From: Devosia sp. ZB163
GTDB lineage: Bacteria; Pseudomonadota; Alphaproteobacteria; Rhizobiales; Devosiaceae
Direction of reading: 5' to 3'
Assembly (NCBI RefSeq): GCF_028613635.1
Contig: NZ_JAQRMY010000003.1
Span: 12,787 to 76,786 of the forward strand
Length of the DNA: 64,000 nucleotides
The position numbers and the translations under genes are program-made. Positions 41,378 through 57,161 of the stretch are shown one piece after another. Within the stretch, counting starts at the first letter, position 1, and every line of letters begins with the position of its first letter. Under the pieces are notes generated by a model, which was not told where the DNA came from, made no database searches, and worked only from the letters and a program-made list of their open reading frames with translations.

Positions 41378-42721
41378 CTAGAGCGTGCCCTTGGTCTTGA
41401 GCTCGCGCACGGCGCCGTCCATGGCATCGATGGTGGCTTCGATGACATCGGAGCTGTGTTCGCTGGACACGAACCAGGCGCCACGCTCGAGGGCGCGCAC
41501 GCCGCGGTGCATCAGCGCCGTGGTCAGCGCGACGTAGGCCGGGCGGTTCATCCTCGCGAGGTCGCGGTAGTTCCGGGCCGGCTGCTCGAGTCCGAGCGCG
41601 ACGTGGAAGACCTGCCCGAAGCCTGCGACCGAAGCCTTGACGTCGTGGCGCGCAAACACGGCCTTGAAGCCTTCCATCAACTGCGTGCCGGACTTGCCCA
41701 CGCGCTCATAGAGATCGGGCGTCAGCGACTTCAGCGTGGCGACGGTCGCGGCCATGGCGATGGGCTGGGCATTGTAGGTGCCACCGTGGACGACGCCGCC
41801 CGAGACGAACATGTCCATCAGATCAGCGCGCCCGGCGATGGCGGCAACGGGGAAGCCGTTGGCGATGGCCTTGCCGAAGGTCGAGAGGTCGGGCGTGACG
41901 CCGAATTTCTCCTGAGCGCCGCCTGCTGCGAGACGGAAGCCGGTGATCACCTCGTCGAAGATGAGGATCGTGCCGGTCTTCGTGCAGGCCTCGCGCACGC
42001 CTTCGAGATAGCCCGCGGCCGGGTGGATCGAGCCCTGGTTGCACATGGCCGCTTCCATGATGACGGCGGCGATGTCGCCCTGGCTGAGGCGAGCCTCGAG
42101 GATGGCGAGGTCGTTCCACGGCAAGACGACGAGGTCATCTGCGGTGCTGGGGAGTTGACCCTTGCTGCCGATCACCGGGACCGGCGCATCGGCGGGGCCG
42201 GCCGCATCGACGGACGGCGCGGTCGACCACAGCACGTTGTCGAACCAGCCGTGGTAGTGGCCTTCGAACTTGATCACCTTGGTGCGCCCAGTGGCAGCCC
42301 GGGCGAGACGCAAAGCAGCCTGATCGACTTCGGAGCCCGAGGAGCCGAAACGCATGCGCTCGGCCGAGGGCACCATCTGGCAGACGAGGCGCGCGGCCTC
42401 GGCCTCGATGGCGGTCTGGCCGGCAAACAGGATGCCGCTGTCGATCTGGCTCTTCACCGCATCGACGAGCGCCTTGGGCTTGTGCCCCAGGATCATCGGC
42501 CCCATGCCGAGGTAGTAGTCGATCAGCTTGTTGCCATCGACGTCGAAGAGGTAGGGGCCTTCGCCGCGCTCGAACACCAGCGGGGTGGGCGCGATGTTGA
42601 GGCGGAAGTTGCTGTTCACGCCGCCCGCGATCCACTGCGAGTTGGTCCGGATGGTCTCGGCCGACTTGTCGAAGCTCAGGAGCGACGACGCCGACGGATT
42701 GGCGGGGGAGGTAACGGACAA
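41378..42721 (-). CDS. Class-III aminotransferase, glutamate-1-semialdehyde aminomutase-like
   Basis: A 447-residue PLP enzyme. It has the GSA-aminomutase-like WIAGGVNSNFR opening, MRFGSSGSEVDQAALRLAR (cofactor phosphate site), FEGHYHGWFD, the Asp of IFDEVITGFR, and the lysine in STFGKAIANGFP. I chose TTG 42721 because an AGGAG site precedes it at ideal spacing; a longer ATG start at 42823 would add 34 unlikely residues. Position in an operon with RidA, an M81 peptidase and IclR argues against the haem role of true HemL. A transaminase or racemase acting on an amino acid is more likely. Confidence 0.88.
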   Translation of the reverse strand: MSVTSPANPSASSLLSFDKSAETIRTNSQWIAGGVNSNFRLNIAPTPLVFERGEGPYLFDVDGNKLIDYYLGMGPMILGHKPKALVDAVKSQIDSGILFAGQTAIEAEAARLVCQMVPSAERMRFGSSGSEVDQAALRLARAATGRTKVIKFEGHYHGWFDNVLWSTAPSVDAAGPADAPVPVIGSKGQLPSTADDLVVLPWNDLAILEARLSQGDIAAVIMEAAMCNQGSIHPAAGYLEGVREACTKTGTILIFDEVITGFRLAAGGAQEKFGVTPDLSTFGKAIANGFPVAAIAGRADLMDMFVSGGVVHGGTYNAQPIAMAATVATLKSLTPDLYERVGKSGTQLMEGFKAVFARHDVKASVAGFGQVFHVALGLEQPARNYRDLARMNRPAYVALTTALMHRGVRALERGAWFVSSEHSSDVIEATIDAMDGAVRELKTKGTL

Positions 42722-42752
42722 GGCAGGACTCCTGAAAGATCGTAGTCCAAGT

Positions 42753-42821
42753 GGCCCCAGGGGCCGGTTGATGTAAATGCCGGCCAGTTCCGCGAGGCGA
42801 AAAAATGCCCGCGGACTGGCC
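42753..42821. other. Two stem-loops between the RidA and aminotransferase genes
   Basis: GGCCCCAGGGGCC (42753-42765) is one small hairpin. GGCCAGTTCCGCG with CGCGGACTGGCC (42782-42821) is a second, with one bulged base. Both fall in the 112-bp gap and may reduce read-through or protect the upstream message. Confidence 0.5.
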
Positions 42822-42833
42822 AAACTCCACGGA

Positions 42834-43220
42834 CTATTCTTTGGCCTTCTTGGCCACGGCGATGCATTCGATCTCGTACCTCAACGCCGCACCGAGGCAA
42901 TTGGTTATGGTCGTCCGCGCGGGGAACGGCGCCTTGAAGTATTCTGGGTAGATCTGGTTGAAGCGAACGAGATCGTCGTTGTCGCGCACATAGTTACGGG
43001 TCTGGACGACATGGTCGAGATCGCTGCCGGCGTCCTCGAGGACCTTCCGCAGGTTCTCGATGGAGCGCCGCATCTCGCCCTCGAACGAGTCCGAGACAAT
43101 CTTGCCGGTCTTGTCGACCGAGGCCTGGCCGGAGACGAAGATGAGGTCGCCGACCTTGGTCGCGGGGCTGAACGGCAGGTGCGAGCGCGGGGTGTCCGGC
43201 GCGCTTGGGTATTCGATCAT
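42834..43220 (-). CDS. RidA family (YjgF/YER057c/UK114) protein
   Basis: A 128-residue RidA-type protein with PFSPATKVGDLIFVSGQ at the N-terminus. A long helix SIENLRKVLEDAGSDLDHVV and FPARTTITNC carry the conserved Arg of the active site. RidA members hydrolyse reactive enamine/imine intermediates such as 2-aminoacrylate made by PLP-dependent dehydratases. A D-serine-dehydratase-like enzyme is encoded 2.5 kb away under the same type of operator, a functional match. It sits between the M81 and aminotransferase genes on the same strand. Confidence 0.92.
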   Translation of the reverse strand: MIEYPSAPDTPRSHLPFSPATKVGDLIFVSGQASVDKTGKIVSDSFEGEMRRSIENLRKVLEDAGSDLDHVVQTRNYVRDNDDLVRFNQIYPEYFKAPFPARTTITNCLGAALRYEIECIAVAKKAKE

Positions 43221-43236
43221 TTTTCGGTTCCGATCG

Positions 43237-44715
43237 TCAGCTGACGGGAAAGACCGGCTGACGCAGCCGGCGGTAGGGCAGGGTCTTCAGTGCGCTGGTG
43301 CACGGGCCCGGGGTGGTTACGGTGTAGCTCGCCCTCGCGATCTTGTCGTAGGCGCGGCGGTGGGCAACGGCTGCCTTCACGCCGATCAGCGACAGGTCCT
43401 CGGGGATGATCCCCTGCGAGCGGAACTGGCCGAGGTCGAAGGGTGGCGTCTTGCGGCTGTTGAGCAGGATCTTGATGCCCTGTGCCTCGACGACAGCGCT
43501 GGGGCCCATCGAGATGTGGACGCCCTGCATGGCGGCGAGGTGGCTGTTGCGATCCTCGAGGGTGAACTCGCCATCGCTGCGGGAGATGAAGGTCACGTCG
43601 AGTTCGACCGGCCCCGGATCGAGCCGGCTGCCCTTCCCGCCGATGGAGAGCCGAACGATGTCGCCCGGCCTGGCGTCGTCTAAGGCGCGAACGGACTCGG
43701 CGTCGGCGATCGCAACTGCGGCGTTCGTCACGCCATGGCGGAGGAAGCCGCGCAGCACGGACGTGCAGTCGCCCGGTGCCCCGCCGCCGATGTTGTCTGC
43801 CGGCTCGACGATGACGACAGGCCCGGGCTTGCCCTTGGCGTCAGCCAGAGCGGCGTCGAGGTCCCATTCCTCTGGCAGGCCGAGTTCGCGGAGCGAAGTC
43901 GCAAGCTGCTCCAGGTCGGTGAGGGCCGCGGTGGCCTCGTCTTCGCTGCCCGCGGTGATGAGGGAGAAGGCGACGCCAGCAAAGGGGACGTCGGAGAAGG
44001 AATAGCCGGCGATGATGTTCACCGCCCAGATGTCGGAGTGCTCCGCCTCGATCTGCCGTGCCAATGCCTCGAGGTCGCGCATGGGGCTATCGGCAGTGCC
44101 GGTTCCGGTCGGCGGCCAGATCAGGGCCGCGTTGCGGACATGCATGCGCGGGATGACGCCTTCGCGCAGCGTGCGGGCCAGGAGGTCGGCAGAGCGCACT
44201 GCCGACTCGCGGGCATCGGTATGGGGGTTCTCGCGATAGCCGACGAGGCCGGTGGCATGCTCGGCCATCAGCGGCGTGAACGTGGCATGGAGGTCGAACA
44301 CGCCGTAGATCGGCAGGCTCTCGGCGCCGGGCACAGCCCGAATACGGCGGAGGAGTTCGCCCTCGGGGTCGACGCTGCCGGTGGTCACCATCGCGCCGTG
44401 GAGGCCAAGCCAGACGCCGTCCAGACCGCCATCGGCGAGCGCTGCCCGCAAACCAGCATCGAGCTCGTTCCAGAACTTCTCGAACACGGCTTGGTCTGCG
44501 GTCCCCGAGGGAAGGGCCGAGTAGTCCGAGACCGGTACGACTTCCCACCCCTCGCGTTCGGCGACCTCGAGGAAGCCGTCGATGGTCGAGCCGTCGCCGC
44601 GCCGGGCGAGGATCGCGTCGCCGCGATTGATGTCGAAGTCGGCGAGACCGGTGATCTCGTCAACGAAGGTGTGGGTCTCGTGGTACAGGCTGGCGAGCAG
44701 GATACGTTTGGTCAT
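43237..44715 (-). CDS. M81 family metallopeptidase (MlrC-like)
   Basis: A 492-residue member of the MlrC/M81 group. Metal-binding motifs YHETHTF at residues 11-17 and FDLHATFTPLMAEHATGLVG near 140-160 are conserved, and the C-terminal MlrC domain includes GGGAPGDCTSVL and ARASYTVTTPGPC. MlrC of Sphingomonas degrades linearised microcystin, which contains D-amino acids. Most family members act on unknown substrates. The ATG 44715 overlaps the IclR stop, so this gene is coupled to its regulator. Confidence 0.92.
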   Translation of the reverse strand: MTKRILLASLYHETHTFVDEITGLADFDINRGDAILARRGDGSTIDGFLEVAEREGWEVVPVSDYSALPSGTADQAVFEKFWNELDAGLRAALADGGLDGVWLGLHGAMVTTGSVDPEGELLRRIRAVPGAESLPIYGVFDLHATFTPLMAEHATGLVGYRENPHTDARESAVRSADLLARTLREGVIPRMHVRNAALIWPPTGTGTADSPMRDLEALARQIEAEHSDIWAVNIIAGYSFSDVPFAGVAFSLITAGSEDEATAALTDLEQLATSLRELGLPEEWDLDAALADAKGKPGPVVIVEPADNIGGGAPGDCTSVLRGFLRHGVTNAAVAIADAESVRALDDARPGDIVRLSIGGKGSRLDPGPVELDVTFISRSDGEFTLEDRNSHLAAMQGVHISMGPSAVVEAQGIKILLNSRKTPPFDLGQFRSQGIIPEDLSLIGVKAAVAHRRAYDKIARASYTVTTPGPCTSALKTLPYRRLRQPVFPVS

Positions 44716-45527
44716 CGGGCGGCAGTGCGTGTCATTTCGGTGGTGATTTCGGCGAGTGCGGCGACAAGGAGCTTGCCCAGCCGCTCGATATTGTCGGGCT
44801 CGAACCGGGCCGACGGCCCGGCGATGCTGACTGCGGCGATCGCATCGCCGCTGGGTCCGAATATGGGCGCGGCCACGCAGGCGCTCCCCATCTCGTTCTC
44901 TTCGTACTCGGTGGCCCAGCCGACGGATCGGCAGCTTTCGAGGATATGCTCCAACTCCTCGGGATCGGTGATGGTCCGGCTGGTGGCCGGTGGCAGCGGG
45001 CCGACAGAGTAAATGATCTTGCGGAAGCCGGGAGACTGATGTGCCAACAGGGCGCGGCCGCAGGCCGTGGAGTGGTACGCGGCGCGGGTACCCGAGTACG
45101 AGGATACACGCAGCGACTGCGTGCCTTCGAGGCTCTCGACGATCACGGCATCAGTCGGGCCGGGCAGTGCGAGGTTCACCGTCTCGCGCGTCGTCGCACA
45201 GAGGCGGATGAGGTGGGGTCGGGCAATCGCCGCGATGTCGAGGCGGCGCTCGACCGCCTTGCCATAGACGAGGTGCTGCAGGCTGAGGCGGTAGGCGCCC
45301 GCCTTGGGGTCGCGCTCGGTAAGGCCTACGTCGACGAGGGCGCTGACGAGGTTGAAGGCCGTCGTCTTGGCCAATCCCGTGCGGGCGGCAAGGTCGCGTA
45401 GCGACACCCATTCGCCGCCGGCCATGGCGTCAAGCAGGGCCTTGGCCCGCGCTACGGACTGGATGCGGGCCTCGGCGGCTGGCAGATTGGTCTGAGCGTC
45501 ACGAGGGGGACCGGCGGTCCTGGGCAT
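44712..45527 (-). CDS. IclR-family transcriptional regulator
   Basis: A 271-residue IclR-type regulator. The winged HTH is at about residues 23-85 (VSLRDLAARTGLAKTTAFNL). The effector domain has the conserved TTRETVNLAL and SGTRAAYHSTACGRALLAH, with a C-terminal subdomain around CVAAPIFGPSGDAIAAVSIAG. It heads the leftward operon with M81, RidA and the aminotransferase. Palindromes at 45553 and 45709 flank the divergent promoters, so it likely represses itself and the gene at 45739. The effector is unknown. Confidence 0.93.
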   Translation of the reverse strand: MPRTAGPPRDAQTNLPAAEARIQSVARAKALLDAMAGGEWVSLRDLAARTGLAKTTAFNLVSALVDVGLTERDPKAGAYRLSLQHLVYGKAVERRLDIAAIARPHLIRLCATTRETVNLALPGPTDAVIVESLEGTQSLRVSSYSGTRAAYHSTACGRALLAHQSPGFRKIIYSVGPLPPATSRTITDPEELEHILESCRSVGWATEYEENEMGSACVAAPIFGPSGDAIAAVSIAGPSARFEPDNIERLGKLLVAALAEITTEMTRTAAR

Positions 45528-45552
45528 GCGAGGGACTCCGCGTTAGTCGTTG

Positions 45553-45569
45553 GTTCCACAGTATAGGAC
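45553..45569. promoter_or_regulatory. Degenerate IclR-type operator at the leftward operon
   Basis: GTTCCACAGTATAGGAC has the same 6-5-6 layout as the site at 45709, with imperfect arms. It lies 26 bp upstream of the IclR start on the minus strand, consistent with autoregulation. Confidence 0.4.
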
Positions 45570-45653
45570 GAAGTTCGGCGCTCCAGCGTGGCCAATTAGG
45601 CACGAACATGGCTCATGTGCAACCTCGGAATCCCCTTATTCCGCGTACTCCTG

Positions 45654-45683
45654 TTGACATGGTGCGACCGGGTGCCGTTACAT
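45654..45683 (+). promoter_or_regulatory. Promoter of the D-serine-dehydratase-like operon
   Basis: A perfect -35 box TTGACA (45654-45659) is followed after 18 bases by TTACAT (45678-45683). The expected start is near 45690, so the palindrome at 45709-45725 lies just downstream, where a bound repressor would block elongation. Confidence 0.6.
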
Positions 45684-45708
45684 CGACGGCGCTGAACACA
45701 AATCAAAC

Positions 45709-45725
45709 GTCCCATCATGTGGGAC
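45709..45725. promoter_or_regulatory. IclR-type operator, perfect 6-5-6 palindrome
   Basis: GTCCCATCATGTGGGAC has arms GTCCCA and TGGGAC around five bases. It ends 13 bp before the ATG at 45739. A close copy (14 of 17 bases) lies at 57145-57161 before the Dpp-type importer, and a related one at 63462-63478. Confidence 0.7.
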
Positions 45726-45738
45726 AGCGTCGGACCTC

Positions 45739-47037
45739 ATGACCCATCTTCCCCGCCTCGATCTTTCCTCCCTTGACGCCCTGCCGCTCGATGCCTCGAC
45801 CAAGGGCCTGCCATACGCCACTTCGCCGCTGACGGTCGGCGAAGTCGGAACTCGTGGATGGAACGTTCTCGACGGCGATCTGCCTATGCCGCTGGCGGTG
45901 ATCCGCCAGCAGGTGGTCGAGGCCAACAGCGCCTGGATGAGCGCGTTCACGGGCGCCAACGACCTGGTCATCGCCCCGCACGGCAAGACGACGATGTCGC
46001 CGCATCTGTTCGACCTGCAGGTTCGGGACGGGGCCTGGGCGATCACGGTCGCCACCGTCCAACAGCTCGAGGTCTGCCTGCGCTTCGGAGTGAAGCGGGT
46101 GCTCATCGCCAACCAGCCGGTTGGGCAGCAGGCGATCGATGCCTGTTTCAGGGCCCTGCAGCGAGACGGCGTCGAGCTCTATTGCCTCGCAGACAGTCCA
46201 GCAGGACTGGCGCTCCTCGCCGAGGGTGCCGGCAGGCTGGCGCCTCCGCAGGGCAACCCGCTGCGCGTCCTGGTCGAGATGGGATTTGCAGGTGGCCGGA
46301 CCGGCGCCCGCAGCCGCGATCAGGCCATCGACGTCGCGCGCGCGGTAGCGCGAACGCCGGGCATGGTCCTTGGCGGGTTCGAGTGCTTCGAGGGGCTGTT
46401 GCCGACAGCCGAGGCCGCCGATGGGCTTATCGATGACGTCGCGGCGCTCACCGTCGCTGCGCTGGAAGAGGGGCTGTTCGTTGACGGCCAGCCGGTGGTG
46501 CTGAGTGCCGGCGGCTCGTCCTTCTTCGATCGCGTCGGCGAGCGTTTCAACCGGGTGCAGTTCAATCGGCCGGTGGTCAAGGTGCTCCGCTCCGGCTGCT
46601 ACCTCACGCACGACTCCATCTCCTACGCCGCGGCGTTCGAGCGGATCATCAGCGATACGTCATTGAAGCTGCCGGCCGGCCGCCTCGAAGCGGCGCTCGA
46701 GGTCTGGGCGCAGGTACAGTCGCGGCCCGAGGACGGGCGCGCGATGCTCAACATGGGCAAGCGGGACGTGAGCTTCGATGCGGGCATGCCGTTGCCGCTG
46801 CGCTGGTTCCGGCCGGGAGAAATGACGAAGCCCGAGGCCATTGCGGCCGGGCACAAGGTGGTGGCGCTCAACGACCAGCACTGTCACCTCGAGACGCCTG
46901 CCGACAGTCCGCTACGGCCCGGCGACATGGTGGCTTTCGGCATTGGGCACCCCTGCACGACCTTCGACAAGTGGCAGATGCTGGTGCTGGTGGACGAGGA
47001 CTACCGCGTGACCAAGGCGTTGAAGACGTTCTTCTAG
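45739..47037 (+). CDS. D-serine dehydratase-like PLP enzyme (fold-type III)
   Basis: A 432-residue PLP-dependent protein of the D-serine dehydratase/D-threonine aldolase-like group. The PLP lysine is K83 in APHGKTTMSP. The barrel carries VLVEMGFAGGRTGARS, and the C-terminal domain ends with NDQHCHL near residues 377-383, a His/Cys pair like the metal site of this family. Such enzymes eliminate water from D-serine-type substrates or deaminate D-amino acids, giving an enamine that RidA proteins remove. It starts the rightward operon with an IclR regulator and an Ldh-type dehydrogenase. Exact substrate unknown. Confidence 0.9.
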   Translation: MTHLPRLDLSSLDALPLDASTKGLPYATSPLTVGEVGTRGWNVLDGDLPMPLAVIRQQVVEANSAWMSAFTGANDLVIAPHGKTTMSPHLFDLQVRDGAWAITVATVQQLEVCLRFGVKRVLIANQPVGQQAIDACFRALQRDGVELYCLADSPAGLALLAEGAGRLAPPQGNPLRVLVEMGFAGGRTGARSRDQAIDVARAVARTPGMVLGGFECFEGLLPTAEAADGLIDDVAALTVAALEEGLFVDGQPVVLSAGGSSFFDRVGERFNRVQFNRPVVKVLRSGCYLTHDSISYAAAFERIISDTSLKLPAGRLEAALEVWAQVQSRPEDGRAMLNMGKRDVSFDAGMPLPLRWFRPGEMTKPEAIAAGHKVVALNDQHCHLETPADSPLRPGDMVAFGIGHPCTTFDKWQMLVLVDEDYRVTKALKTFF

Positions 47038-47047
47038 GGAGGGAAGG

Positions 47048-47821
47048 ATGGGCGACGACTACATTGTGCAGCCGGTGATCAAGGCGCTGCAGGTGCTCGA
47101 GTATGTAGCGCGGCAGGGCCGCGACGTGACGCTCACGGAAACAGTCCACGAACTCGGGCTACCCAAGACCACCGTGTTCCGCTACCTGCAGACGCTGTCG
47201 GCGGCGAACTACCTCGAGCACGATGTTGGTCGCGACCGCTATCGCGTGGGGCGCAAGTTCCGCGACATGGCGCGGGTCGACCAGGACCTGACCGGCCTGC
47301 GCCAGGTGGCGCAACCCGAGATGCGCAAGCTCGTCGACACCTTCCACGAGACGGTCAACCTCGCCGTGCTGACAGACAGCCAGGTGGTCTACATCGACAT
47401 GTTGGAGCCGGATGCGCGCGCGCTGAAGGCGAGCGCACGGGTCGGCTATCGCCACCCGGCGCATTCGACGTCACTGGGCAAGGCGATGATGGCCTTCCTG
47501 CCTGATGCCGATCAGCGTCTGCTTGCCGAGGGCATGCTGTCGCAGATGACATTCCGCACGCTCACCGATGCGGGCCAGCTTCGCCGCCAGGCCGACGACG
47601 TGCGGCGGCGGGGCTACGCCATCGAGATCGGCGAGAACGAGGACGGCGTCATGTGCATCGGCGTACCCATCCTCGACCGGAGCGGCTACCCTGTAGCGGC
47701 GATGAGCTTGTCGGCCCCCGAGCGACGGATGAAACCCGAGTTGACGACGGTGGCCGCCGATGCCCTAAAAGGCGCGGCGCGCCGCATCTCGACCAATCTG
47801 CGCTCCAACTTCAGCCGCTAA
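47048..47821 (+). CDS. IclR-family transcriptional regulator (second)
   Basis: A 257-residue IclR-type regulator. The HTH is at about residues 8-70 (VTLTETVHELGLPKTTVFRY), and the effector domain has TFHETVNLAVL and SARVGYRHPAHSTSLGKAMM. A GGGAGGGAAGG ribosome site precedes ATG 47048, 10 bp after the dehydratase-like gene. It is clearly not a duplicate of the IclR at 44712, differing in most positions. Which of the two binds the shared palindromes is unknown. Confidence 0.93.
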   Translation: MGDDYIVQPVIKALQVLEYVARQGRDVTLTETVHELGLPKTTVFRYLQTLSAANYLEHDVGRDRYRVGRKFRDMARVDQDLTGLRQVAQPEMRKLVDTFHETVNLAVLTDSQVVYIDMLEPDARALKASARVGYRHPAHSTSLGKAMMAFLPDADQRLLAEGMLSQMTFRTLTDAGQLRRQADDVRRRGYAIEIGENEDGVMCIGVPILDRSGYPVAAMSLSAPERRMKPELTTVAADALKGAARRISTNLRSNFSR

Positions 47822-47830
47822 GAGGACTTC

Positions 47831-48880
47831 ATGACTCAATCGAACATGCGCCTTGTCCCCTGGGACCGGCTGCAGGCCAGCACGGTTGCGCTCTTTCGCG
47901 CGGCCGGCTCGGAAGCCCGCGAAGCACGGCTGATCGCCGAGCATCTGGTCGAGGCAAACCTGCGCGGGCACGACTCGCACGGGGTGGGCGTCGTGCCGAT
48001 GTACATCAACGGCCTTGTCGCCGGTGGTCTCGTGCTCAACCAGAGTCTCAATGTTGCCGTCGATACGGGCGCGATGCTGATCTGCGACGCGGGGCAGGGT
48101 GCTGGTCAGGTCATGGCGCATGACGCGATGGAACTCGGCATCGCGCGGGCGCGCGATACTGGCAGCGCCATCGTCAGCCTGCGCAACAGCCACCATATCG
48201 GCCGCATTGGCCACTGGGCCGAGCAGTGCGCGTCGGCGGGTCTGGTGTCGATCCACTTCGTCAATGTCGTCGCGGGAGCGATCGTCGCGCCGTTCGGTGG
48301 CACGCGGGCGAGGCTCGGGACCAATCCCTTCGCCGCGGCCTTCCCGCGCAAGGACGCGCCGCCGGTGGTGGTGGATTTCGCCACCAGCAAGCTCGCCTCG
48401 GGCAAGGTGCGCGTCGCGCACAACAAGGGTGTCGAAATCCCGCCGGGAGCGCTGCTGGACAACATGGGCCAGCCGACCACCGATCCGGGCAAGCTGTTCG
48501 AAACGCCGCCGGGTTCGCTGATGACGTTCGGCGAGCACAAGGGCTGGGGCATGATGCTGGCCTGCGAGCTTCTCGGCGCGGCGCTGGTCGGGGCGCCCAC
48601 GCAGCATCAGGCCGCCGGCAACGGCGCGGTGATCAACTCGATGTTCTCGGTCATCGTGTCGCCGGACCGGCTGGGTACCGGCGGTCCCTTCGGCGAGGAG
48701 CTCGAGGCCGTCCTCGGCTGGGTGTCGTCGGAGGATACGGTGAAGCTTCCCGGCGAACCGGAGCTCGAAACACGCCAGCAGCGCATCATCGACGGCATCC
48801 CGATCGATGCAGCGACCCTCGAGCAGCTCGATGCCGCGGCGCGGCAGGTCGGGCTAGAGAAGGGCTTCGGGATCGTCTAG
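47831..48880 (+). CDS. Ldh-family (malate/L-lactate/sulfolactate-type) dehydrogenase
   Basis: A 349-residue NAD(P)-dependent oxidoreductase of the type II malate/L-lactate dehydrogenase fold. The N-terminal helix has EANLRGHDSHGVGVVP. The catalytic His is in LRNSHHIGRIGHW, and PVVVDFATSKLASGKVRVA and GEHKGWGMMLACELL are the cofactor and C-terminal signatures. Substrates in this family include malate, lactate, ureidoglycolate, sulfolactate and delta-1-piperideine-2-carboxylate. The last is a D-amino acid product, notable beside a D-serine-dehydratase-like enzyme. It ends 15 bp before a convergent gene. Confidence 0.9.
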   Translation: MTQSNMRLVPWDRLQASTVALFRAAGSEAREARLIAEHLVEANLRGHDSHGVGVVPMYINGLVAGGLVLNQSLNVAVDTGAMLICDAGQGAGQVMAHDAMELGIARARDTGSAIVSLRNSHHIGRIGHWAEQCASAGLVSIHFVNVVAGAIVAPFGGTRARLGTNPFAAAFPRKDAPPVVVDFATSKLASGKVRVAHNKGVEIPPGALLDNMGQPTTDPGKLFETPPGSLMTFGEHKGWGMMLACELLGAALVGAPTQHQAAGNGAVINSMFSVIVSPDRLGTGGPFGEELEAVLGWVSSEDTVKLPGEPELETRQQRIIDGIPIDAATLEQLDAAARQVGLEKGFGIV

Positions 48881-48895
48881 GCGGGGCGGGGCGGC

Positions 48896-49381: not shown

Positions 49382-49827
49382 GCGCGCTTCCTCAGGACCT
49401 GCCGGCAACTGCCGGGACCGGTGATCTCGGTGTCGATGGCGTAGGGCGAGCCCTCGGCCATTGCTTCGTTGGTGCGGATCGTCTGGTCGCAGAACTGGGC
49501 CGACGGCTGGCCGACGAGCTTGGCGACATGGTGCCAGGCGGTGCAGTGACGGACCGTGAGGATGATCTCCTCGCTGCCGACCTCGATATCGTAGTCGCAG
49601 TTCTCGCGGCTGAAGAAATGGCGCCAATGGGCGACGAGCTGTTCGGTGTCGCCGGCGACGAGGTCGTCGTGGATTGAGCGATAGACGTCGCGGCCGACCT
49701 TGCGGAAGATGTCGTCGAGCGCCTCGATGCCGTAGCGGCCGATGATGAAGTCGATCGTGGTGTTGGTGGCGCCGTGGAAGTCGAGGTGGACCTCGCCGCC
49801 TTCGGCGTAGCGCAGCTTCTCGCTCAT
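49378..49827 (-). CDS. Small Cys-containing protein of unknown function (partner)
   Basis: A 149-residue soluble protein, paired with the gene at 48896. The shared frame is an N-terminal helical region (IIGRYGIEALDDIFRKVGRD), then FSRENCDYDIEVGSEEIILT, and CTAWHH followed by FCDQTIRT and a terminal GSCRQVL. ATG 49827 overlaps the NagA-like stop (ATGA), so it is preferred to ATG 49842. The Cys and His positions shared with its partner suggest a metal or redox site. No function can be assigned. Confidence 0.75.
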   Translation of the reverse strand: MSEKLRYAEGGEVHLDFHGATNTTIDFIIGRYGIEALDDIFRKVGRDVYRSIHDDLVAGDTEQLVAHWRHFFSRENCDYDIEVGSEEIILTVRHCTAWHHVAKLVGQPSAQFCDQTIRTNEAMAEGSPYAIDTEITGPGSCRQVLRKRA

Positions 49828-50999
49828 GCTGCCTTGCTCCACATTTCTTTCCCGCCGACCCAGGTCGCGGTCACGTCGAGCGAGGCGCGATCGAGGACGG
49901 CGAAGTCGGCGAGCTTGCCGCGCTCGAGACTGCCGAGGTCGCGTTCCATGCCGAGGACGCGCGCCGGCACCAGGCTCGTGGCGTTGGCGACCTGTGCGAG
50001 GTCCTTGCCGGAGAAACGGAGGTAGTTGCGCATGGCCTCGTCGGGGGTGAGGGAGGAGCCGCAGAGGCCGCCGCCCTTTGCCTCGCGCACTGCCTTGCCG
50101 GGCGCGCTGGTGACGACATAGCCCGGGTAGAACTCGAACGTTGCGCCGGGCGTGCCGGCATACTTCATCGCATCGGTCTCTAGGAACACCCGGTCATCAG
50201 GGAGCTGCGCGAGCAGCCGCACGAGCTGCGGTTCGACATGGATGCCATCGCAGACCAGGCCGAGCGCGAGGCTGGGCTCGGCGAGCAGGGCGTCGGTCAG
50301 AGAAAGCACATGGACGCCCATGTTCCCCGGCGGATAGGTGGGCATCACGTTGTACATGTGGGTCACGGCGTCGATGCCCCAACTCACGTAGCGCGGGATG
50401 TCTTCCGGCCGAGCCTGGCTATGGCCGAGATGGATGGAAACGCCCGCGGCCTTGAGGGTCTTGATGAAGCCTTCGGCTCCGGGCTTCTCGGGGGCCAGCG
50501 TCACAGCCTTCAGTCGCCCGTCCGTCGCGGCGAGCATCCGCTCCGCCAGCTCGACGCTGGGCAACTGGATGTTCTCGGGATTGTGCGCGCCGGGTGAACC
50601 GAACACCGGGCCCTCGCTGTGGACGCCAAGCGCGCGGGCGCCGGTTGCCTCCACAGTCTGAGCCGAGAGTCGGCTCAGCGTCGGCTCCATCTTCATTGGT
50701 GGCAGGCAGGAGATCGACGGCAGGAAGCCGGTAACACCGTTCTTCAGCAGCAGCTGCGAGTTGCTCGCGACGGCGCCCTCCTCGGTGTCGTTGTAGAGAT
50801 GCTCGCCATAGCCGTGCTGCAGCAGGTCGATGCTGCCGGGAAAGAGGATGGCGCCGGCGCCATCGATCACGCGCCAGTCGTCGCCGACGGCAGTCCCCGA
50901 AGGAACAAGGCCGGCGATCCGGTCCCCATCGACAAGCAAGTCGTTGGCGACCTCGGCCTGCGGGGTGACGACGGTGACATTGGTCCAGCGGGATTTCAT
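49824..50999 (-). CDS. N-acetylglucosamine-6-phosphate deacetylase-like amidohydrolase
   Basis: A 391-residue amidohydrolase of the NagA group. Its metal and catalytic residues are E in GVHSEGPVFGSPGAHN, H in SIHLGHSQA, H in AVTHMYNVM, H in LVCDGIHVE and D in LETDAMKY. The first metal motif is IDLLQHGYG instead of IDLHVHG, so one His is lost, as in single-metal NagA enzymes. Other members of this fold deacylate N-acyl-D-amino acids. Given the Dpp-type importer and D-amino-acid-type genes nearby, an N-acyl amino compound is as likely as GlcNAc-6-P. The ATG 50999 was chosen since the upstream extension is shadow sequence. Confidence 0.87.
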   Translation of the reverse strand: MKSRWTNVTVVTPQAEVANDLLVDGDRIAGLVPSGTAVGDDWRVIDGAGAILFPGSIDLLQHGYGEHLYNDTEEGAVASNSQLLLKNGVTGFLPSISCLPPMKMEPTLSRLSAQTVEATGARALGVHSEGPVFGSPGAHNPENIQLPSVELAERMLAATDGRLKAVTLAPEKPGAEGFIKTLKAAGVSIHLGHSQARPEDIPRYVSWGIDAVTHMYNVMPTYPPGNMGVHVLSLTDALLAEPSLALGLVCDGIHVEPQLVRLLAQLPDDRVFLETDAMKYAGTPGATFEFYPGYVVTSAPGKAVREAKGGGLCGSSLTPDEAMRNYLRFSGKDLAQVANATSLVPARVLGMERDLGSLERGKLADFAVLDRASLDVTATWVGGKEMWSKAA

Positions 51000-51015
51000 C
51001 GGTAGGTCCGGGTGG

Positions 51016-51777
51016 TCATGTCGCGGGCTCCCACGACATCTGGTTGGCGAGGATGCCGCCGTCGACATAGAGCATCTGTCCGGTGATGTAGCGGGCGGCG
51101 GGGGAGGCGAGGAACACGGCGGCGCCGCCAATTTCGTCGGGCACGCCGACGCGACCGAGAGGGATCTGTTTTTCGAGGGCAGGGCGGACGCCCGGCGCCG
51201 CCAGCCCCTTCGCGGACAGCGGCGTCTCGATGATCCCCGGCCCGATGCCGTTTACGCGGATGCCGCGCTCGGCGAGCGTGACCGCAAGGTTGCGGACCAG
51301 CATCAGCACCGCGCCCTTCGACGTGTCGTAGATGACGCTGTTCTTTTCGGCCGCCAGTGAGTTGGTCGAGCCGGTGCAGATGATGCTCGGGTTCTCCTGC
51401 TCCGGCGCCAGACCTTTGACGAAGGCCTGCGCGGCGAACAGGTAGCCCTTCACGTTGAGGTTGAAGGTGCGGTCGAACACCGCCTCGGTGAGGTCGTCGA
51501 AATTGGTGTCGAGGTAGGTGCCCGCGTTGTTGACCAGCGTATCGAGCCGACCGAGTTTCGCGCGCGCCGCCGCGACGAAGCCCTGCGCACCAGCCACCGT
51601 CGAGAGATCGGCCTGCACGAAATGGCACTCAGTCAGCGCGCCGAGGCGTTCCGCCGCCCCGCCATCATCAGCAAGGTGCGAGTTGATCGCCAGCCGCGCG
51701 CCGGCATGCGCGAAGGCTTCGGCGATGGCATAGCCGATGCCGGTGGTAGAACCTGTTATGGCGACGCACTGGCTCAT
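51016..51777 (-). CDS. Short-chain dehydrogenase/reductase
   Basis: A 253-residue SDR. Cofactor loop ITGSTTGIGYA is at residues 7-17, NNAGTY near 88, catalytic Ser in CTGSTNS, and YDTSK with the active Tyr and Lys near 158-162. PGIIETPLSA and the terminal YVDGGILANQ are also classical. It overlaps the ATPase gene by 4 bases and so is translated with the importer. The substrate cannot be predicted. Confidence 0.93.
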   Translation of the reverse strand: MSQCVAITGSTTGIGYAIAEAFAHAGARLAINSHLADDGGAAERLGALTECHFVQADLSTVAGAQGFVAAARAKLGRLDTLVNNAGTYLDTNFDDLTEAVFDRTFNLNVKGYLFAAQAFVKGLAPEQENPSIICTGSTNSLAAEKNSVIYDTSKGAVLMLVRNLAVTLAERGIRVNGIGPGIIETPLSAKGLAAPGVRPALEKQIPLGRVGVPDEIGGAAVFLASPAARYITGQMLYVDGGILANQMSWEPAT

Positions 51778-52613
51778 GCTAGCGCGTTCCCGGCCAGCCC
51801 AGCTTCGACGCTGAGTACGGCGCCAACAAGCGCCTGCGTGGCCTCCGCTTGCGGGTTGCGGAACAGGTCGAGCGGTTTGCCCACCTCGACGATCTTGCCC
51901 GATGACATCACGTAAACCTTGCTGGTTGTGTAGGCGACTACCGACAGGTCGTGCGCGATGAACACGAGGCCCAGCCCGAGGTCGCGGACGAGGTCCTTCA
52001 AGAGGTTCAGCACCTGCGCCTGGATCGAGACGTCGAGCGCGGAAACCGGCTCGTCGGCGATCAGCACTTTCGGGCCGGGCATCAAGGCGCGGGCGATGGC
52101 GATGCGCTGCAACTGGCCGCCGGAGAACTCGTGCGGGAAACGCTCGAGCGCGCTCTTCTGCAGCCCGACCTGGTCCAGCACTTCGAGGACGCGGGCGGCA
52201 TGATCGCCTTCGATCTTGAGGCTGCGGAGCGGCTCGAGCAGCGAAGTGCCGACGCGCATGCGCGGATCGAGCGAGGAGCGCGGGTTCTGCAGCACGACCT
52301 GCACCGAGCGGCGGAAGAGCTTGCGATGCGCTTCGCCGCCGGTCCAAACGTCGAGACCGTCATAAAGGACGTTCCCGCTCATGGGCTTTTCGACACCCGT
52401 CAGCATGCGGGTCAGCGTCGTCTTGCCCGAGCCGGACTCGCCGACGAGTCCGACGGCCTCGCCGGGGCGGACCGAGAGATCGATCGTGTCGAGGACGCGG
52501 AGCGTCGGACGAGACGCGAACAGCTTCTGGCGGCGCAGATTGTAGGTCTGGCTCAGTTGTCGGACTTCGAGCAGCGGACGTGCATCGGCGGGAAAAGGGG
52601 TGACGGCAGTCAT
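51774..52613 (-). CDS. Dipeptide/oligopeptide ABC transporter ATPase, DppF/OppF type
   Basis: A 279-residue ATPase. Walker A GESGSGKTT is near residues 61-69, the signature FSGGQLQRIAIARA near 160-173, Walker B VLIADEPVSALD, and the H-loop IAHDLSVVAY. It pairs with the DppD-type gene upstream, whose stop it overlaps. It lacks the long C-terminal cysteine domain of DppD, as expected for DppF. Confidence 0.94.
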   Translation of the reverse strand: MTAVTPFPADARPLLEVRQLSQTYNLRRQKLFASRPTLRVLDTIDLSVRPGEAVGLVGESGSGKTTLTRMLTGVEKPMSGNVLYDGLDVWTGGEAHRKLFRRSVQVVLQNPRSSLDPRMRVGTSLLEPLRSLKIEGDHAARVLEVLDQVGLQKSALERFPHEFSGGQLQRIAIARALMPGPKVLIADEPVSALDVSIQAQVLNLLKDLVRDLGLGLVFIAHDLSVVAYTTSKVYVMSSGKIVEVGKPLDLFRNPQAEATQALVGAVLSVEAGLAGNALA

Positions 52614-53596
52614 TGCGCGGCCACCTCGCTGGAGTTGGGCACCGGGTGCCAGCAGGCCGATTTCAGCGTATCGCCGGAAAGTTCGGGCATCTCGGCACGG
52701 CACCTGTCGGTGGCGACGGCACAGCGCGGGTTGAAGGCGCAGCCGGTCGGGAGGTCGTGCAGGGGCGGCACCATGCCGGGGATGGAGACGAGGCGCGACG
52801 TGCCATCGAGCGCGATGTTGTCCATGGTCGGCTGGCTGTCGAGCAGGCCGCGCGTGTAGTGGTGGCGCGGGTTGCGGAACACTTCCGCCACCGGGCCCAT
52901 CTCGACGATACGGCCGGCGTACATGACCGCGACGGTGTCGCACATGGCGGCGATGATGGGCAGATCGTGGGTGATCATCAGCAGGGCAGAGCCCCGATCG
53001 TGCGCCGCGCCGTTGAGGAGGCGGAGCACCTGCTTCTGCACCGTCACGTCGAGGGCCGTCGTCGGCTCGTCGGCGATGATCAGCTGCGGATAGCAGGCAA
53101 GCGCCATGGCGATCATGATGCGCTGGCGCTGACCGCCCGAGATCTCGTGCGGATAGGCACGGACGAGCTGCTCGGGACGCGGTAGTTTCATCTGCGTGAT
53201 GAGTTCGATCGTCTGCTGCTCGGCGGTCTTCTTGTCGACGCCCATGTGCTTGCGGATCACCCAGCTGATCTGGTCGCCGACCCGGCGGACCGGGTTGAGC
53301 GAGGAGAGGGGATCCTGGAACACCATCGAGATGGTGCGGCCGCGACGGCTCGACAGCGCCTTGTCGGATTGGGTGACGAGATCGACGCCGTCGTGGAGGA
53401 CGGAGCCATGCGTGCTCCAGCCCATGGGCAGCAGTCCCATCAGCGCGAGTGCGGTCATCGACTTGCCCGAACCGCTCTCGCCGACGAGGCCCATGCGGCC
53501 GCCCTGCGGGATGGTGAAGGAGACGCCGCGCACGGCGGTGACGTCGCCGTTGCCGACGACGAGGTCCCTGACCTCGATGGCGTTGCGGGAGGTCAT
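52610..53596 (-). CDS. Dipeptide/oligopeptide ABC transporter ATPase, DppD/OppD type
   Basis: A 328-residue ATPase. Walker [10 protein letters not shown], signature [14 protein letters not shown], Walker [13 protein letters not shown] and H-loop [10 protein letters not shown] are all intact. The C-terminal oligopeptide domain has the Cys motif [15 protein letters not shown], which in OppD/DppD binds an iron-sulphur cluster or metal. It overlaps the DppC-type gene upstream by 4 bases. Confidence 0.95.
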
Positions 53597-54462
53597 GCGC
53601 TCCTCCGCTTGAGCTTGGGATCGAGCACGTCGCGCAGGCCGTCACCGAGCAGGTTCAGCCCGAGCACCACGAGGACGATGGCGAGGCCGGGCCAGATGGC
53701 GAGCGGCGATGAGATGCCGACCGTCTGCTGGGCCTCGTTGAGCATCATGCCCCAGGAGATCGAGGGACGCGTGACGCCGACGCCGAGGTAGGACAGGCCA
53801 GCCTCGGTGAGGATGCCGGCGGCGAAGTAGAGGGTGAACTGGACGATCATGACGCCGGCGATGTTGGGGATGACGTGGCGCGCGAGGATGAAAAGCCGCC
53901 CGCGGCCATAGAGCTTGGCCGACGTGATGAAATCCTCCTGCAGCACACCCATCGCCGCCGAACGGATGACACGGGTGAAGGAGGGGGTGAAGAAGGCCGA
54001 GAGCGCGAGGATGGTAGTGAACGCGCCTGAGCCCATCGTGGCGGCCAGCACCAGCGCGGTCACCATGCCGGGGATCGACAGCAGGATGTCGGCGCCACGC
54101 GAGATCGCCTCGTCGGCGAACTTGCCATAGGCAGCGGCGACGAGACCGGTGATGGTCCCGAGGACGAGCGCAATGGACGCGCCACCGGCGCCGACGAGAA
54201 TCGACGTGCGAGCGCCAACCATCAGTTGGGCGACGATGTCGCGACCGAGCCCGTCCGTCCCCAGCCAGTGGTTCGGGGAGAAGGGCGGCATCATGCGCGC
54301 CTTGATGTTGGGGATGTTCGGGTTGGAAGGCAGCCAGAAGAAAGAGATGATGGCGATGGCGAGAAAGCCGATCGTCAGGACGACGCCGACGACCAGCGAG
54401 GCGTTGAGGTCGAGGCGGCGGCGCCTTTTCGGCACTGAGACGGCGGGGGCTGTAATGGTCAT
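53593..54462 (-). CDS. Dipeptide/oligopeptide ABC transporter permease, DppC type
   Basis: A 289-residue permease with an N-terminal cytoplasmic segment, a first helix near residues 24-46 ([20 protein letters not shown]), and the typical [20 protein letters not shown] motif. Four to five further helices follow, ending [15 protein letters not shown]. It pairs with the DppB-type gene 10 bp upstream. Confidence 0.95.
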
Positions 54463-54472
54463 CTGAGCCTCC

Positions 54473-55420
54473 TCACGCGGCGTTGCGGATGCGGGGGTCG
54501 AGGATGCCGTAGAGCAGGTCGACCACGAAGTTCACGAAGATCACGAAGACGATGATCAGCATCACCGTTGACTGCACGACGATCACCTCGCGCGCGGCAA
54601 CGTTGGCGAGGATCATGCGGCTGAGGCCGGGCAGCGAAAACACCATCTCGATGATCACGGTGCCGCCGATCAACTCGGCGATCTGCAGCCCGACAATGGT
54701 GACGATGGGGAGCGCGGCGTTGCGCAGGCCGACCTGCAGCAGCGCCTGCGTGCGCGTCATGCCGACGGCGCGAGCGGTGCGGACATAGTCCTGGTTCATC
54801 ACGTCGAGCACGGCGGAGCGTACGTAGCGGATCAGCACCGCGGCCATGATGAGTCCGAGCGACAGGACGGGAAGAACGAGCGAGCGGATCGAGCCGACCC
54901 AGTCATCAGACCAGTCCACCCAGCCGCCGGTGGGCAACCAGCCGAGGCGCACCCCGAAGAGGACGGAGAGCAGGATGCCGGCCCAGAATACGGGGATGGC
55001 GATGCCGATCTGGCTGATCAGTGCGAGTACTGCACCCGATGGCTTGCCGACGTTCCGCGCGGCGTAGGTGCCGACGGGGATGGCGATGATGAGACCAAGA
55101 AGCAGGCCGGAAAGGGCGAGCGGAATGGAAACGCTCAGTCGTCCGACGACGAGATCGGCCACGGCCTCCTTGGTGCGGAAGGACTGGCCGAGGTCGCCCT
55201 GCAGCATGCCGAGGATCCAGTCGAAGTACTGGACCGGCAGTGGGCGGTCGAGACCGTAGGCAGTGGCGAGGGCGTTGATGGCGTCGGCAGTAGCGTCCTT
55301 GCCGAGCACGATGGCCGCGACGTTGCCGCCGGCGGCGCGGATCAGGAGGAAGATGGCTACGGAGGCGACGAAGACTGCGCCGATAAAGAAGACCAGTTTG
55401 CGTAGCGCGTATAATGCCAT
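54473..55420 (-). CDS. Dipeptide/oligopeptide ABC transporter permease, DppB type
   Basis: A 315-residue permease with six predicted helices. The early motif AYGLDRPLPVQYFDWILGML, the EAA-like loop DYVRTARAVGMTRTQALL, and the terminal VDLLYGILDPRIR are diagnostic of DppB/OppB. It lies 93 bp after the binding-protein gene; that gap contains a strong stem-loop. Confidence 0.95.
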   Translation of the reverse strand: MALYALRKLVFFIGAVFVASVAIFLLIRAAGGNVAAIVLGKDATADAINALATAYGLDRPLPVQYFDWILGMLQGDLGQSFRTKEAVADLVVGRLSVSIPLALSGLLLGLIIAIPVGTYAARNVGKPSGAVLALISQIGIAIPVFWAGILLSVLFGVRLGWLPTGGWVDWSDDWVGSIRSLVLPVLSLGLIMAAVLIRYVRSAVLDVMNQDYVRTARAVGMTRTQALLQVGLRNAALPIVTIVGLQIAELIGGTVIIEMVFSLPGLSRMILANVAAREVIVVQSTVMLIIVFVIFVNFVVDLLYGILDPRIRNAA

Positions 55421-55461
55421 TCTGCATGCCTCTGCGGTGACCGGACAGACTGCGGTCGGTT

Positions 55462-55489
55462 GCGGGCCGCCGGTTAGCCGGCGGCCCGC
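55462..55489 (-). other. Stem-loop between the peptide binding-protein and permease genes
   Basis: GCGGGCCGCCGG and CCGGCGGCCCGC form a perfect 12-bp stem with a four-base loop. There is no U-run downstream on the minus strand. The position matches the stem-loops after the binding-protein genes at 12799 and 17218, consistent with differential expression of binding protein over permease. Confidence 0.6.
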
Positions 55490-55513
55490 GAGTTTCGTGT
55501 CAGAACACCAGCC

Positions 55514-57037
55514 TTACCAGCTGAGGTTCTTGAACTCGATTGCCACGGCGACGCGGGGCTCGATGAAGCCCTTGAGGTCCTGCTCGAACAGGCCCACGCC
55601 CTTCTTGGCGATCAGCGGGACGATGACGGCATCATCACGCAGGATCTTGGCGGCCAGCTTCATCTTGGCGAGGTAGTCCTCGTCAGAGGTCGCTGCGTCG
55701 GCATCGGACAGGGCCTGGGTGTACTCGGCGCTGCAGTAGGTGCTCCAGCCGGCCTTGGCCGGATCGGTGCAGTTCCACTGGGTCGGATCGGCGTCGCCCG
55801 ACATCACGGTGATGTCGAACTGCGGCGGACGGCCCTGGAAGATCAGCTGCGAGTAGCGTGCCAGGTCGATGGCATTGCGGGTGACGTTGAAGCCGGCACC
55901 CTGCATGGCCGGGACCATGATGTCAGCCGGCAGCGACAGATCGGGAACGTCGCTGAGCGAAGCGTATTCGAGCGGCGTCGAAGCATATGCCGAGGCCTTG
56001 GCCATGGCGCCTTCGAAGTCATACGGATACGGGCAGCTCTCGGCGCTCTCGGGTTCGTACCAGGGCTGGTTCGGCAGAGCGAAGGTGCAGGTGTTCTCGG
56101 CACCCCAGGAGGCGCCGAAGGCGTCGTTGTAGGACTGGCGGTCGAGCGTCGCGGCAAGTGCCTTGCGCAGTTCCGGGTCGAGCTTCTGGTTGAGCACGGC
56201 ATAGGTCGGCTCGCCGACCTGGGGATAGGTCAGCAGCGTGAACTTCTTGTCGAGCTCGCGCTTGGTCACCTGCTCCCACAGGTCGATGGTGATGACCGGC
56301 AGGGAGTCGACTTCGCCGGCTTCGAGGGCGTTGAGCCCCGCGCTGCCGTCGGTGATGACGCGAACGGTCACGTCCTTGATCGACGGAGCGTCGCCCCAGT
56401 ACTGGTCGTTGGCGGTGAACTCGAACGCGCTGTTGGTGGTGTACTTCACCAGCTTGTACGGGCCGGTGCCGATCGGATTGGTGGCGATCGTGCCGGCGGC
56501 GTGTTCGGGCTGGATCAGGCCGGCGGTGCCGCCCATGCCCAGCCAGAAGTTCTGGCTCGGACGCGACAGGGTCACCTTGACGGTCTTGTCGTCGACCTTC
56601 TCCATCGAGGCGACAGCCGCATAGGCTGCCGAGTTCTGCGAGACCGGGCTGCCCTTCATGGTGTTGAGCGAGTACAGCACGTCCTCGACGGTCACCGGGG
56701 TGCCGTCGGAGAATTTCGCCTCGCGGATGACGAAGGTGTAGACCAGCTTGTCGTCGCTGATGGTCCAGGACTCGGCAACGCCCGGGGAGACCGAGCCGTC
56801 CTTGTTGAAGTAGACCAGCGGCTCGACCACGTTGGCCGGAATCCACAGGCGTAGCGCCGTGAGGTTGCTGGTGACGTAGTCAAGCGTGCCCGGATCCTGG
56901 CGGGCGACCAGAACCACCTTGTTCTCGGCTGCGCGCGGCGAAGCGGCCATGGCCTCGGCGCCGCCGAAGGCAGCCAGCATGACCGTCGCGGCGGCGATCG
57001 CGCCGAGCCGTTGGCCGAACTTGTACGAAGATTGCAT
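55514..57037 (-). CDS. Peptide/nickel-type ABC transporter substrate-binding protein (family 5)
   Basis: A 507-residue SBP family 5 protein. A signal peptide of about 31 residues (AIAAATVMLAAFGGAEAMAA) is followed by VVLVARQDPGTLDYVTSN. Family motifs include EPLVYFNKDGSVSPGVAESW and KFSDGTPVTVEDVLYSL. The mature domain has a few cysteines, including one in NTCTFALP and SCPYP. ATG 57037 has an AAGGGA site. It heads the leftward operon of importer, SDR, NagA-like enzyme and two small proteins. A 17-bp IclR-type palindrome lies 108 bp upstream. The ligand is probably a modified peptide or amino acid conjugate (inference). Confidence 0.94.
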   Translation of the reverse strand: MQSSYKFGQRLGAIAAATVMLAAFGGAEAMAASPRAAENKVVLVARQDPGTLDYVTSNLTALRLWIPANVVEPLVYFNKDGSVSPGVAESWTISDDKLVYTFVIREAKFSDGTPVTVEDVLYSLNTMKGSPVSQNSAAYAAVASMEKVDDKTVKVTLSRPSQNFWLGMGGTAGLIQPEHAAGTIATNPIGTGPYKLVKYTTNSAFEFTANDQYWGDAPSIKDVTVRVITDGSAGLNALEAGEVDSLPVITIDLWEQVTKRELDKKFTLLTYPQVGEPTYAVLNQKLDPELRKALAATLDRQSYNDAFGASWGAENTCTFALPNQPWYEPESAESCPYPYDFEGAMAKASAYASTPLEYASLSDVPDLSLPADIMVPAMQGAGFNVTRNAIDLARYSQLIFQGRPPQFDITVMSGDADPTQWNCTDPAKAGWSTYCSAEYTQALSDADAATSDEDYLAKMKLAAKILRDDAVIVPLIAKKGVGLFEQDLKGFIEPRVAVAIEFKNLSW

Positions 57038-57144
57038 GAAGAATCGTCCCTTCCGATTGTCCCTGAGATTCAATGTGCCACGCGGTGGCTCCACAAGATG
57101 CCCCTGCTCACTCGACGGTGCGCCGCGCCGCACGCTTCGAAAAT

Positions 57145-57161
57145 GTCCCATAATGTGGAAT
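57145..57161. promoter_or_regulatory. IclR-type operator upstream of the peptide importer operon
   Basis: GTCCCATAATGTGGAAT matches the perfect operator at 45709 in 14 of 17 bases. It lies 108 bp upstream of the binding-protein start. The rest of the 430-bp divergent region (57038-57467) contains the palindromes at 57273-57300 and no gene I can support. Confidence 0.65.

Follow-up and report, generated by a model that had tools for sequence, protein, structure and literature searches.

Three adjacent operons of Devosia sp. ZB163, within a 64,000-nucleotide stretch of contig NZ_JAQRMY010000003.1 (hereafter the window), are supported by comparison with related genomes as one predicted regulon under the control of IclR-family regulators. 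Unit 1 (minus strand) consists of iclR1, a gene for an M81 hydrolase that overlaps it by 4 bp, ridA and a gene for a class III aminotransferase; unit 2 (plus strand) encodes a D-serine-dehydratase-like enzyme (DSD), a second regulator (iclR2) and an Ldh_2-family dehydrogenase; unit 3 (minus strand) comprises oppABCDF and the genes for an SDR oxidoreductase, a NagA-like amidohydrolase and two small proteins, SmA and SmB. As the substrate of the encoded pathway we favour an N-acylated 2-amino sugar acid, with a probability of about one half. Every gene named in the original prediction, a reading of the window made without database searches, was found in place with its open reading frame intact:

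41378–42823, minus strand: class III aminotransferase, glutamate-semialdehyde-aminomutase-like (PF00202); the TTG start is possibly too far upstream
42834–43220, minus strand: RidA-family protein (PF01042)
43237–44715, minus strand: M81 (MlrC-like) metallo-hydrolase (PF07364 and PF07171), matching PDB entries 3iuu and 7ylq
44712–45527, minus strand: IclR-family regulator 1 (iclR1), with IclR helix-turn-helix (PF09339) and effector (PF01614) domains
45739–47037, plus strand: DSD, a fold-III pyridoxal-phosphate (PLP) enzyme (PF14031; PDB 3gwq, E 2e-90)
47048–47821, plus strand: IclR-family regulator 2 (iclR2), with the same two domains (PF09339 and PF01614)
47831–48880, plus strand: Ldh_2-family 2-oxo/2-hydroxy acid dehydrogenase (NF007504, 445 bits against a cut-off of 336; PF02615; PDB 2g8y)
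48896–49381, minus strand: small protein SmB, a paralogue of SmA by profile match, of no family
49378–49827, minus strand: small protein SmA, whose model is weakly like BcsD, TRAPP and V4R-like sensor folds
49824–50999, minus strand: NagA-like amidohydrolase, with no arginine where that of the NagA phosphate segment aligns
51016–51777, minus strand: SDR oxidoreductase
51774–57037, minus strand: oppABCDF-type ABC importer (A 55514–57037, B 54473–55420, C 53593–54462, D 52610–53596, F 51774–52610)

Candidate operators and their conservation

The palindromes that had been proposed in front of the three units, at 45553, 45709 and 57145, are all present. The pattern drawn up for them, RTYCCA-N5-TGGRAY, was not enriched in a motif search of either the window (16 matches with up to two mismatches, 17.9 expected) or the 4.59 Mb genome in 10 contigs from which the window is taken (64 matches with up to one mismatch, 61 for the reversed control), and was on this ground rejected as proof of a regulon by itself. 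Three of its five exact matches in the genome fall within the window (45709, 57145 and 63462), and the palindrome at 45553 departs from it by one mismatch. A refined pattern, RTYCYAYNNNRTRGRAY, was read off the orthologous promoters at other Devosia loci; it was derived from matches to the first pattern and is dependent on it, while its genome-wide specificity and the fixed spacings of the sites are independent. All four of its exact matches in the window's own genome lie in the window (45553, 45709, 57145 and 63462), and the reversed control gave none. The candidate operators are listed below:

45553–45569: operator 1, GTTCCACAGTATAGGAC, about 25 bp upstream of iclR1, exact to the refined pattern; partner 156 bp away
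45709–45725: operator 2, GTCCCATCATGTGGGAC, 13 bp before the DSD start, exact to the refined pattern
57145–57161: operator 3, GTCCCATAATGTGGAAT, about 110 bp upstream of oppA, exact to the refined pattern and a conserved block in the upstream alignment
57273–57289: operator 4, GTTCCGTTCCATGGAAC, 128 bp from operator 3, deviating from the refined pattern at one position; absent from the sites originally listed
63462–63478: possible further operator, ATTCCACGTTGTGGAAT, at the start of the ROK gene, exact to the refined pattern

Nineteen genomes of the genus were compared, of which eight, the window's own included, carry the IclR cluster. The pair of sites on the iclR1 side was found in all eight, with spacings of 156, 156, 164, 165, 165, 165, 166 and 167 bp, and so was the pair on the oppA side, with a spacing of exactly 128 bp in each; the sites of one genome, G160, stand on short contigs ending before DSD and oppA, so that these two neighbours were seen in seven of the eight. 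Together the cluster genomes hold 27 exact matches to the refined pattern, made up of 24 at three conserved places (three in each genome), the site at 63462 and two elsewhere (G151 and G153), with the fourth conserved place, on the oppA side, showing one mismatch. The 11 genomes without the cluster hold eight exact matches in all, and the reversed control gave five over all 19 genomes. An alignment of the region upstream of oppA from six genomes shows conserved blocks amid otherwise diverged DNA: both sites, the sequence immediately preceding the second of them, and the leader. Pattern matches within genes of the relatives (L053 at 17225, L057 at 13703 and 18610, L007 at 4843, and L071 at 2376) were left off the operator list. 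Two of the genomes without the cluster, G159 (L072:1870) and G162 (L073:2967), hold exact matches to the refined pattern, and the 12 kb compared there contain no homologues of window genes.

The published IclR group-1 consensus, GTTYCRYW3RYGRAAC, matches seven places in the window with up to three mismatches (the five candidate operators at 45553, 45709, 57145, 57273 and 63462, together with 42787 and 57297), a count reached by 7 of 60 shuffles (mean 3.3); the number of near-matches is not rare, and it is their placing that is unusual. One of them, at 57297–57313, is a further near-palindrome (GTTCTACCTTGTGAAAC) lying 24 bp from the site at 57273, with two mismatches to the consensus. In the relatives the outer site on the oppA side has no mismatch to the consensus in seven of seven genomes. 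Like the group-1 regulons, as far as the part of their description used here extends (PMC8222616), the sites are 17-bp palindromes, two to three mismatches from the consensus in the window and zero to four in the relatives; tandem sites in that description are 18–22 bp apart, whereas the pairs here are 128 and 156–167 bp apart, and two linked IclR genes are found here. Both iclR1 and iclR2 occur in all eight cluster genomes, so their presence does not tell which of the two binds.

Sites of the same kind were found on a plasmid of Microvirga lotononidis, where tblastn detected homologues of the aminotransferase (75%), RidA (80%), M81 (71%), DSD (65%) and IclR2 (62%). Two sites, one exact and one with one mismatch, lie 165 bp apart between the divergent units, and the homologue of IclR1 (72%) is displaced by 12 kb; an exact site precedes this match by about 230 bp, and beyond the site lie Opp-type genes. 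Devosia RYN_483 (L008) has M81, ridA and DSD in its 20.7 kb, with no match to iclR1 or iclR2 in that stretch and no site within one mismatch of either pattern in the gap between M81 and DSD; its oppA promoter lies beyond the contig end. The proposal of a three-unit regulon is supported by conserved sites at fixed spacings in eight of eight Devosia genomes and on one Microvirga plasmid, with regulator binding predicted. That the palindromes arose by chance and the operons are regulated independently would fit the lack of enrichment of the first pattern and the shuffled near-match counts, but is very improbable in view of the sites in all eight genomes, their spacings, the Microvirga sites and the specificity of the refined pattern.

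Gene co-occurrence and a sister cluster

Gene co-occurrence also supports the link between the three units. The genes for the NagA-like enzyme and DSD are present in the same 13 of the 19 genus genomes and absent from the same six (E 1e-60), often unlinked, and the raw probability of this coincidence, shared ancestry being ignored, is 1 in 27,132. The NagA-like enzyme and SmB were found in the same two of 385 genomes of the class, one being the window's. Relatives of the window DSD were present at 12 named loci, seven from Devosia (76–84% identity) and five from Mycobacteriaceae (36–38%); the mycobacterial loci (L012–L016) were rejected as relatives of the cluster, DSD being the sole shared protein among those mapped. 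The Ldh_2 gene is not part of the core, as the sequence compared from G161 and RYN_483 contains no match to it.

Within the genus, DSD matches are of two kinds, those of the IclR cluster (77–100%) and those of a sister cluster (41–43%). The latter was found in five other Devosia genomes (spread over contig pieces in two cases), in G051 (same order, other family) and in G327 (same class, 1.6 Mb), and these genomes hold the whole or nearly whole gene set together: Gfo/Idh and SDR oxidoreductases, an HpcH/HpaI aldolase, DSD, RidA, an SDR, a NagA-like enzyme, SmA, SmB, BNR (sialidase-like) proteins and an MFS transporter with HEAT repeats. GntR, AraC, PhyH and M81 genes were found in several sister clusters, M81 being near by in four of the seven genomes. 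The set is split in G151, G153, G154, G157 and G160, where the NagA-like enzyme, the aldolase, the oxidoreductases (Gfo/Idh, SDR) and the BNR proteins are encoded at one place, and another SDR, SmA, SmB, DSD, RidA, M81 and the aminotransferase in the cluster with IclR sites. In the subgroup of the window (G000, G161 and G164), the NagA-like enzyme, SDR, SmA, SmB, DSD and RidA are all encoded within the IclR cluster.

A few features of the sister cluster may be recorded separately. In the 1.6 Mb alphaproteobacterium G327 (L076 and L077) most of the cluster is present with M81 and Opp-type genes adjoining; the MFS transporter and the HEAT repeats form a single 753-residue protein (L051:15811–18072), which recurs in the sister cluster; and in-frame stop codons, a sign of possible decay or sequencing error, were seen in the rows for the aldolase copy of G152 (L084) and one BNR copy of G153 (L092).

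Enzymes, likely substrate and alternative explanations

The solved structures matched by DSD are 3gwq, 7dib and 6qkb, and the closest, 3gwq, is named D-serine deaminase. Residues K83 and H404/C406, which we take to have functional roles, are invariant in 10 of 10 homologues. In a tree of 22 proteins the window DSD falls within a clade of 12 (support 96/93) with sugar-acid contexts, and DSDs of Pantoea, Pseudomonas and Chelatococcus associated with amino-acid importers fall outside it. Plasmid neighbourhoods of DSD were represented by 10 annotated examples chosen non-randomly from 191 records, the eleventh being that of Microvirga, unannotated and mapped by tblastn; the 10 contain RidA (7/10), an Opp-type importer (3/10), an amino-acid importer (3/10), an aldolase/citrate-lyase gene (2/10) and M81 (1/10). 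Some plasmid homologues adjoin genes for 2-keto-3-deoxygalactonate (KDGal) kinase, gluconolactonase or aldolase/citrate-lyase, and on a Comamonas plasmid a DSD homologue is found together with D-aminoacylase, RidA, KDGal kinase and an Opp-type importer.

The NagA-like enzyme is an amidohydrolase relative whose nine solved matches are all named NagA, but at 198.3 bits it scores under the NCBIfam nagA cut-off of 225.65. Residues of its metal-ligand motif, which presumably bind the metal, are invariant in 10 homologues. Where E. coli NagA has its arginine, none of the 10 aligned homologues has one (in L047 an arginine stands five places earlier), in keeping with an unphosphorylated substrate. In mycobacterial NagA a conserved arginine is implicated in (6-)phosphate binding, according to the excerpt of that report used here (PMC6016474), and the arginine of the E. 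coli enzyme would be its counterpart; judged from these alignments, the substrate of the NagA-like enzyme is likely to be unphosphorylated. The M81 protein shares both Pfam M81 domains with the microcystinase MlrC, but reaches 99.8 bits against the cut-off of 999 for the latter.

SmA and SmB matched no known family. They look paralogous (hhalign probability 93%, E 5e-7, from shallow alignments), and each has invariant Cys and His positions across 12 sequences. The model of SmA (predicted local distance difference test score, pLDDT, 81) has matches only at E >1e-3, to BcsD, TRAPP and V4R-like sensor folds; the fold search with SmB (pLDDT 75) gave no convincing match, and the order of its elements resembles that of SmA.

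Among described pathways the nearest analogue is ong, which acts on N-acetylglucosaminic acid and whose cluster comes from Pseudoalteromonas prydzensis ACAM 620 (parts of PMC9537276, with further background from part of PMC12017989). According to the former, OngB deacetylates N-acetylglucosaminic acid, the fold-III PLP enzyme OngC converts glucosaminic acid to 2-keto-3-deoxygluconate (KDG) and ammonia and accepts D-serine and D-threonine too, and deletion of ongD, the RidA gene, whose role its authors call unknown, abolishes growth. As here, a deacetylase, a fold-III PLP deaminase, a RidA protein and a repressor occur together. The differences are that OngB is D-aminoacylase-like and the deacetylase here NagA-like; that ong has an SSS symporter instead of an Opp ABC importer; that the ong cluster includes a KDG kinase and the three units encode none (the genome was not searched for one); that ong is linked to a lytic polysaccharide monooxygenase (LPMO), an enzyme absent from the window genome; and that the portion of the ong description used here makes no mention of M81, the SDR, the aminotransferase or SmA/SmB. 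The version of ong that starts from chitin by way of an LPMO was rejected for a genome without LPMO, no search having been made for chitinases or a KDG kinase. Two GH20 proteins and an Eda over its cut-off were found in the window genome. The original statement that no described pathway has this exact set of genes needs qualifying: the set itself was in no open-access paper that we found, but its logic of deacetylase, fold-III PLP deaminase and RidA is that of ong.

In the pathway that we favour, one or both of the linked IclR proteins would bind the group-1-like palindromes that stand in pairs in the iclR1–dsd gap and upstream of oppA, and whose conservation was observed. The Opp-type importer would take up a conjugated compound, from which M81 and the NagA-like amidohydrolase would strip the N-acyl group, leaving a 2-amino-3-hydroxy acid of D configuration, with a 2-amino-2-deoxy sugar acid as the likeliest candidate. 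By family chemistry and the ong precedent, the fold-III PLP enzyme would then eliminate ammonia to yield a 2-keto-3-deoxy acid and RidA would hydrolyse the enamine/imine; the SDR and Ldh_2 enzymes would adjust the redox state, and carbon would reach central metabolism via an aldolase, HpcH/HpaI in the relatives and here perhaps Eda. The import and breakdown chemistry first proposed for the three operons is in part kept in this scheme; the peptide or D-amino acid then proposed as substrate is less favoured, given the aldolase, oxidoreductases and BNR proteins of the sister cluster and the sugar-acid neighbourhoods of some DSDs. If the scheme is true, the ong-type logic (deacylation, PLP elimination, RidA) extends to terrestrial alphaproteobacteria with another deacylase and importer, a metabolic role beyond microcystin breakdown is suggested for M81 hydrolases, and two small conserved proteins without a family gain a testable home. 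A concrete candidate operator is also supplied for the linked IclR pair.

More tentatively, this may be a route, not described so far, by which an N-acylated amino-sugar acid or its conjugate is processed in unphosphorylated form, with a substrate-shifted NagA-family enzyme, an M81 hydrolase acting on a non-peptide and heteromeric, V4R-like SmA/SmB as a new enzyme or carrier; the complete cluster of about 15–20 genes would be that of other Devosia and two more distant alphaproteobacteria, and the version described here the one under IclR control. We consider this extended proposal possible and somewhat doubtful.

Several observations weigh against the favoured sugar-acid substrate. At the thresholds used, the window genome, G161 and G164 gave neither an HpcH/HpaI aldolase nor BNR proteins of the sister kind, so that for the window genome the downstream route is a proposal; the window genome also has no LPMO. 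A racemase-linked DSD of Sinorhizobium, on a long branch, falls inside the 12-member clade of the window DSD, and the DSDs of the sister cluster fall just outside it. The phosphate-contacting asparagine of NagA is kept in eight of 10 homologues of the NagA-like enzyme (aspartate in L056 and L076). The 29 kb stretch of Microvirga is without NagA-like, SDR and SmA/SmB genes (the chromosome was not searched), which means that the link to sugar acids may cover only part of the regulon. Finally, other DSD homologues adjoin amino-acid importers or racemases.

Such neighbours would fit a regulon for a D-amino-acid-containing or modified peptide, imported by Opp and cleaved by M81 and the NagA-like enzyme, with DSD eliminating ammonia from D-serine-like or D-threonine-like residues. 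The name of the closest solved DSD, the activity of OngC itself on D-serine and D-threonine (in the part of PMC9537276 used here) and the occurrence of M81 beside Opp-type importers in Microvirga (three M81 genes) and Phyllobacterium would agree with this. We nevertheless regard a peptide substrate as rather unlikely, as the sister cluster has HpcH/HpaI aldolase, Gfo/Idh, SDR and BNR genes, and the importer-linked DSDs of Pantoea, Pseudomonas and Chelatococcus lie outside the clade of the window DSD (the racemase-linked one of Sinorhizobium lies inside).

Another explanation is that one regulator system serves two pathways, units 1 and 2 being an older module that was extended in Devosia, to handle a second substrate, by the unit with the NagA-like enzyme, SDR, SmA and SmB. 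The Microvirga stretch, which has units 1 and 2 with their sites and lacks those additional genes, can be read in this way, as can the absence of matches to the NagA-like enzyme and SmB from the plasmid collection at the limits used. Two pathways are improbable, however: the Microvirga evidence comes from a plasmid stretch only, the genes for the NagA-like enzyme and DSD accompany each other, linked or not, in 13 of the 19 genus genomes, and the sister cluster unites DSD, RidA, the NagA-like enzyme, SmA and SmB, an M81 gene lying close to it in four of seven genomes.

A pathway like the beta-hydroxyaspartate cycle (compared with the part of PMC11323563 used here) was rejected as highly improbable: BhcR is the best NCBIfam model for both IclR proteins and BhcC the only one for DSD, but the scores are far under the cut-offs (174 and 158 against 350 for BhcR, 75 against 690 for BhcC), and DSD is far nearer to 3gwq (2e-90) than to the D-3-hydroxyaspartate aldolase 6qkb (1e-13).

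Neighbouring genes

Next to the three units lies a divergent unit (57414–63999) with a ribose-type ABC importer, an FGGY kinase, which is xylulokinase-like, a ROK regulator and a galactonate-dehydratase-like gene; its sugar ABC genes adjoin oppA in several Devosia genomes. There is no support for extending the regulon to this unit. The sites of G151, G153, G154 and G157 are about 105–250 bp from oppA and the start of the sugar ABC genes is more than 1.3 kb away, and in G161 the sites are present and the sugar ABC/FGGY unit is absent from the 20 kb taken. No site of the 63462 type precedes the ROK gene of G153, the one relative in which this gene was covered. Several relatives have a second, divergent M81 gene after iclR2 (L058:12799–14394), which adjoins another Opp-type importer.

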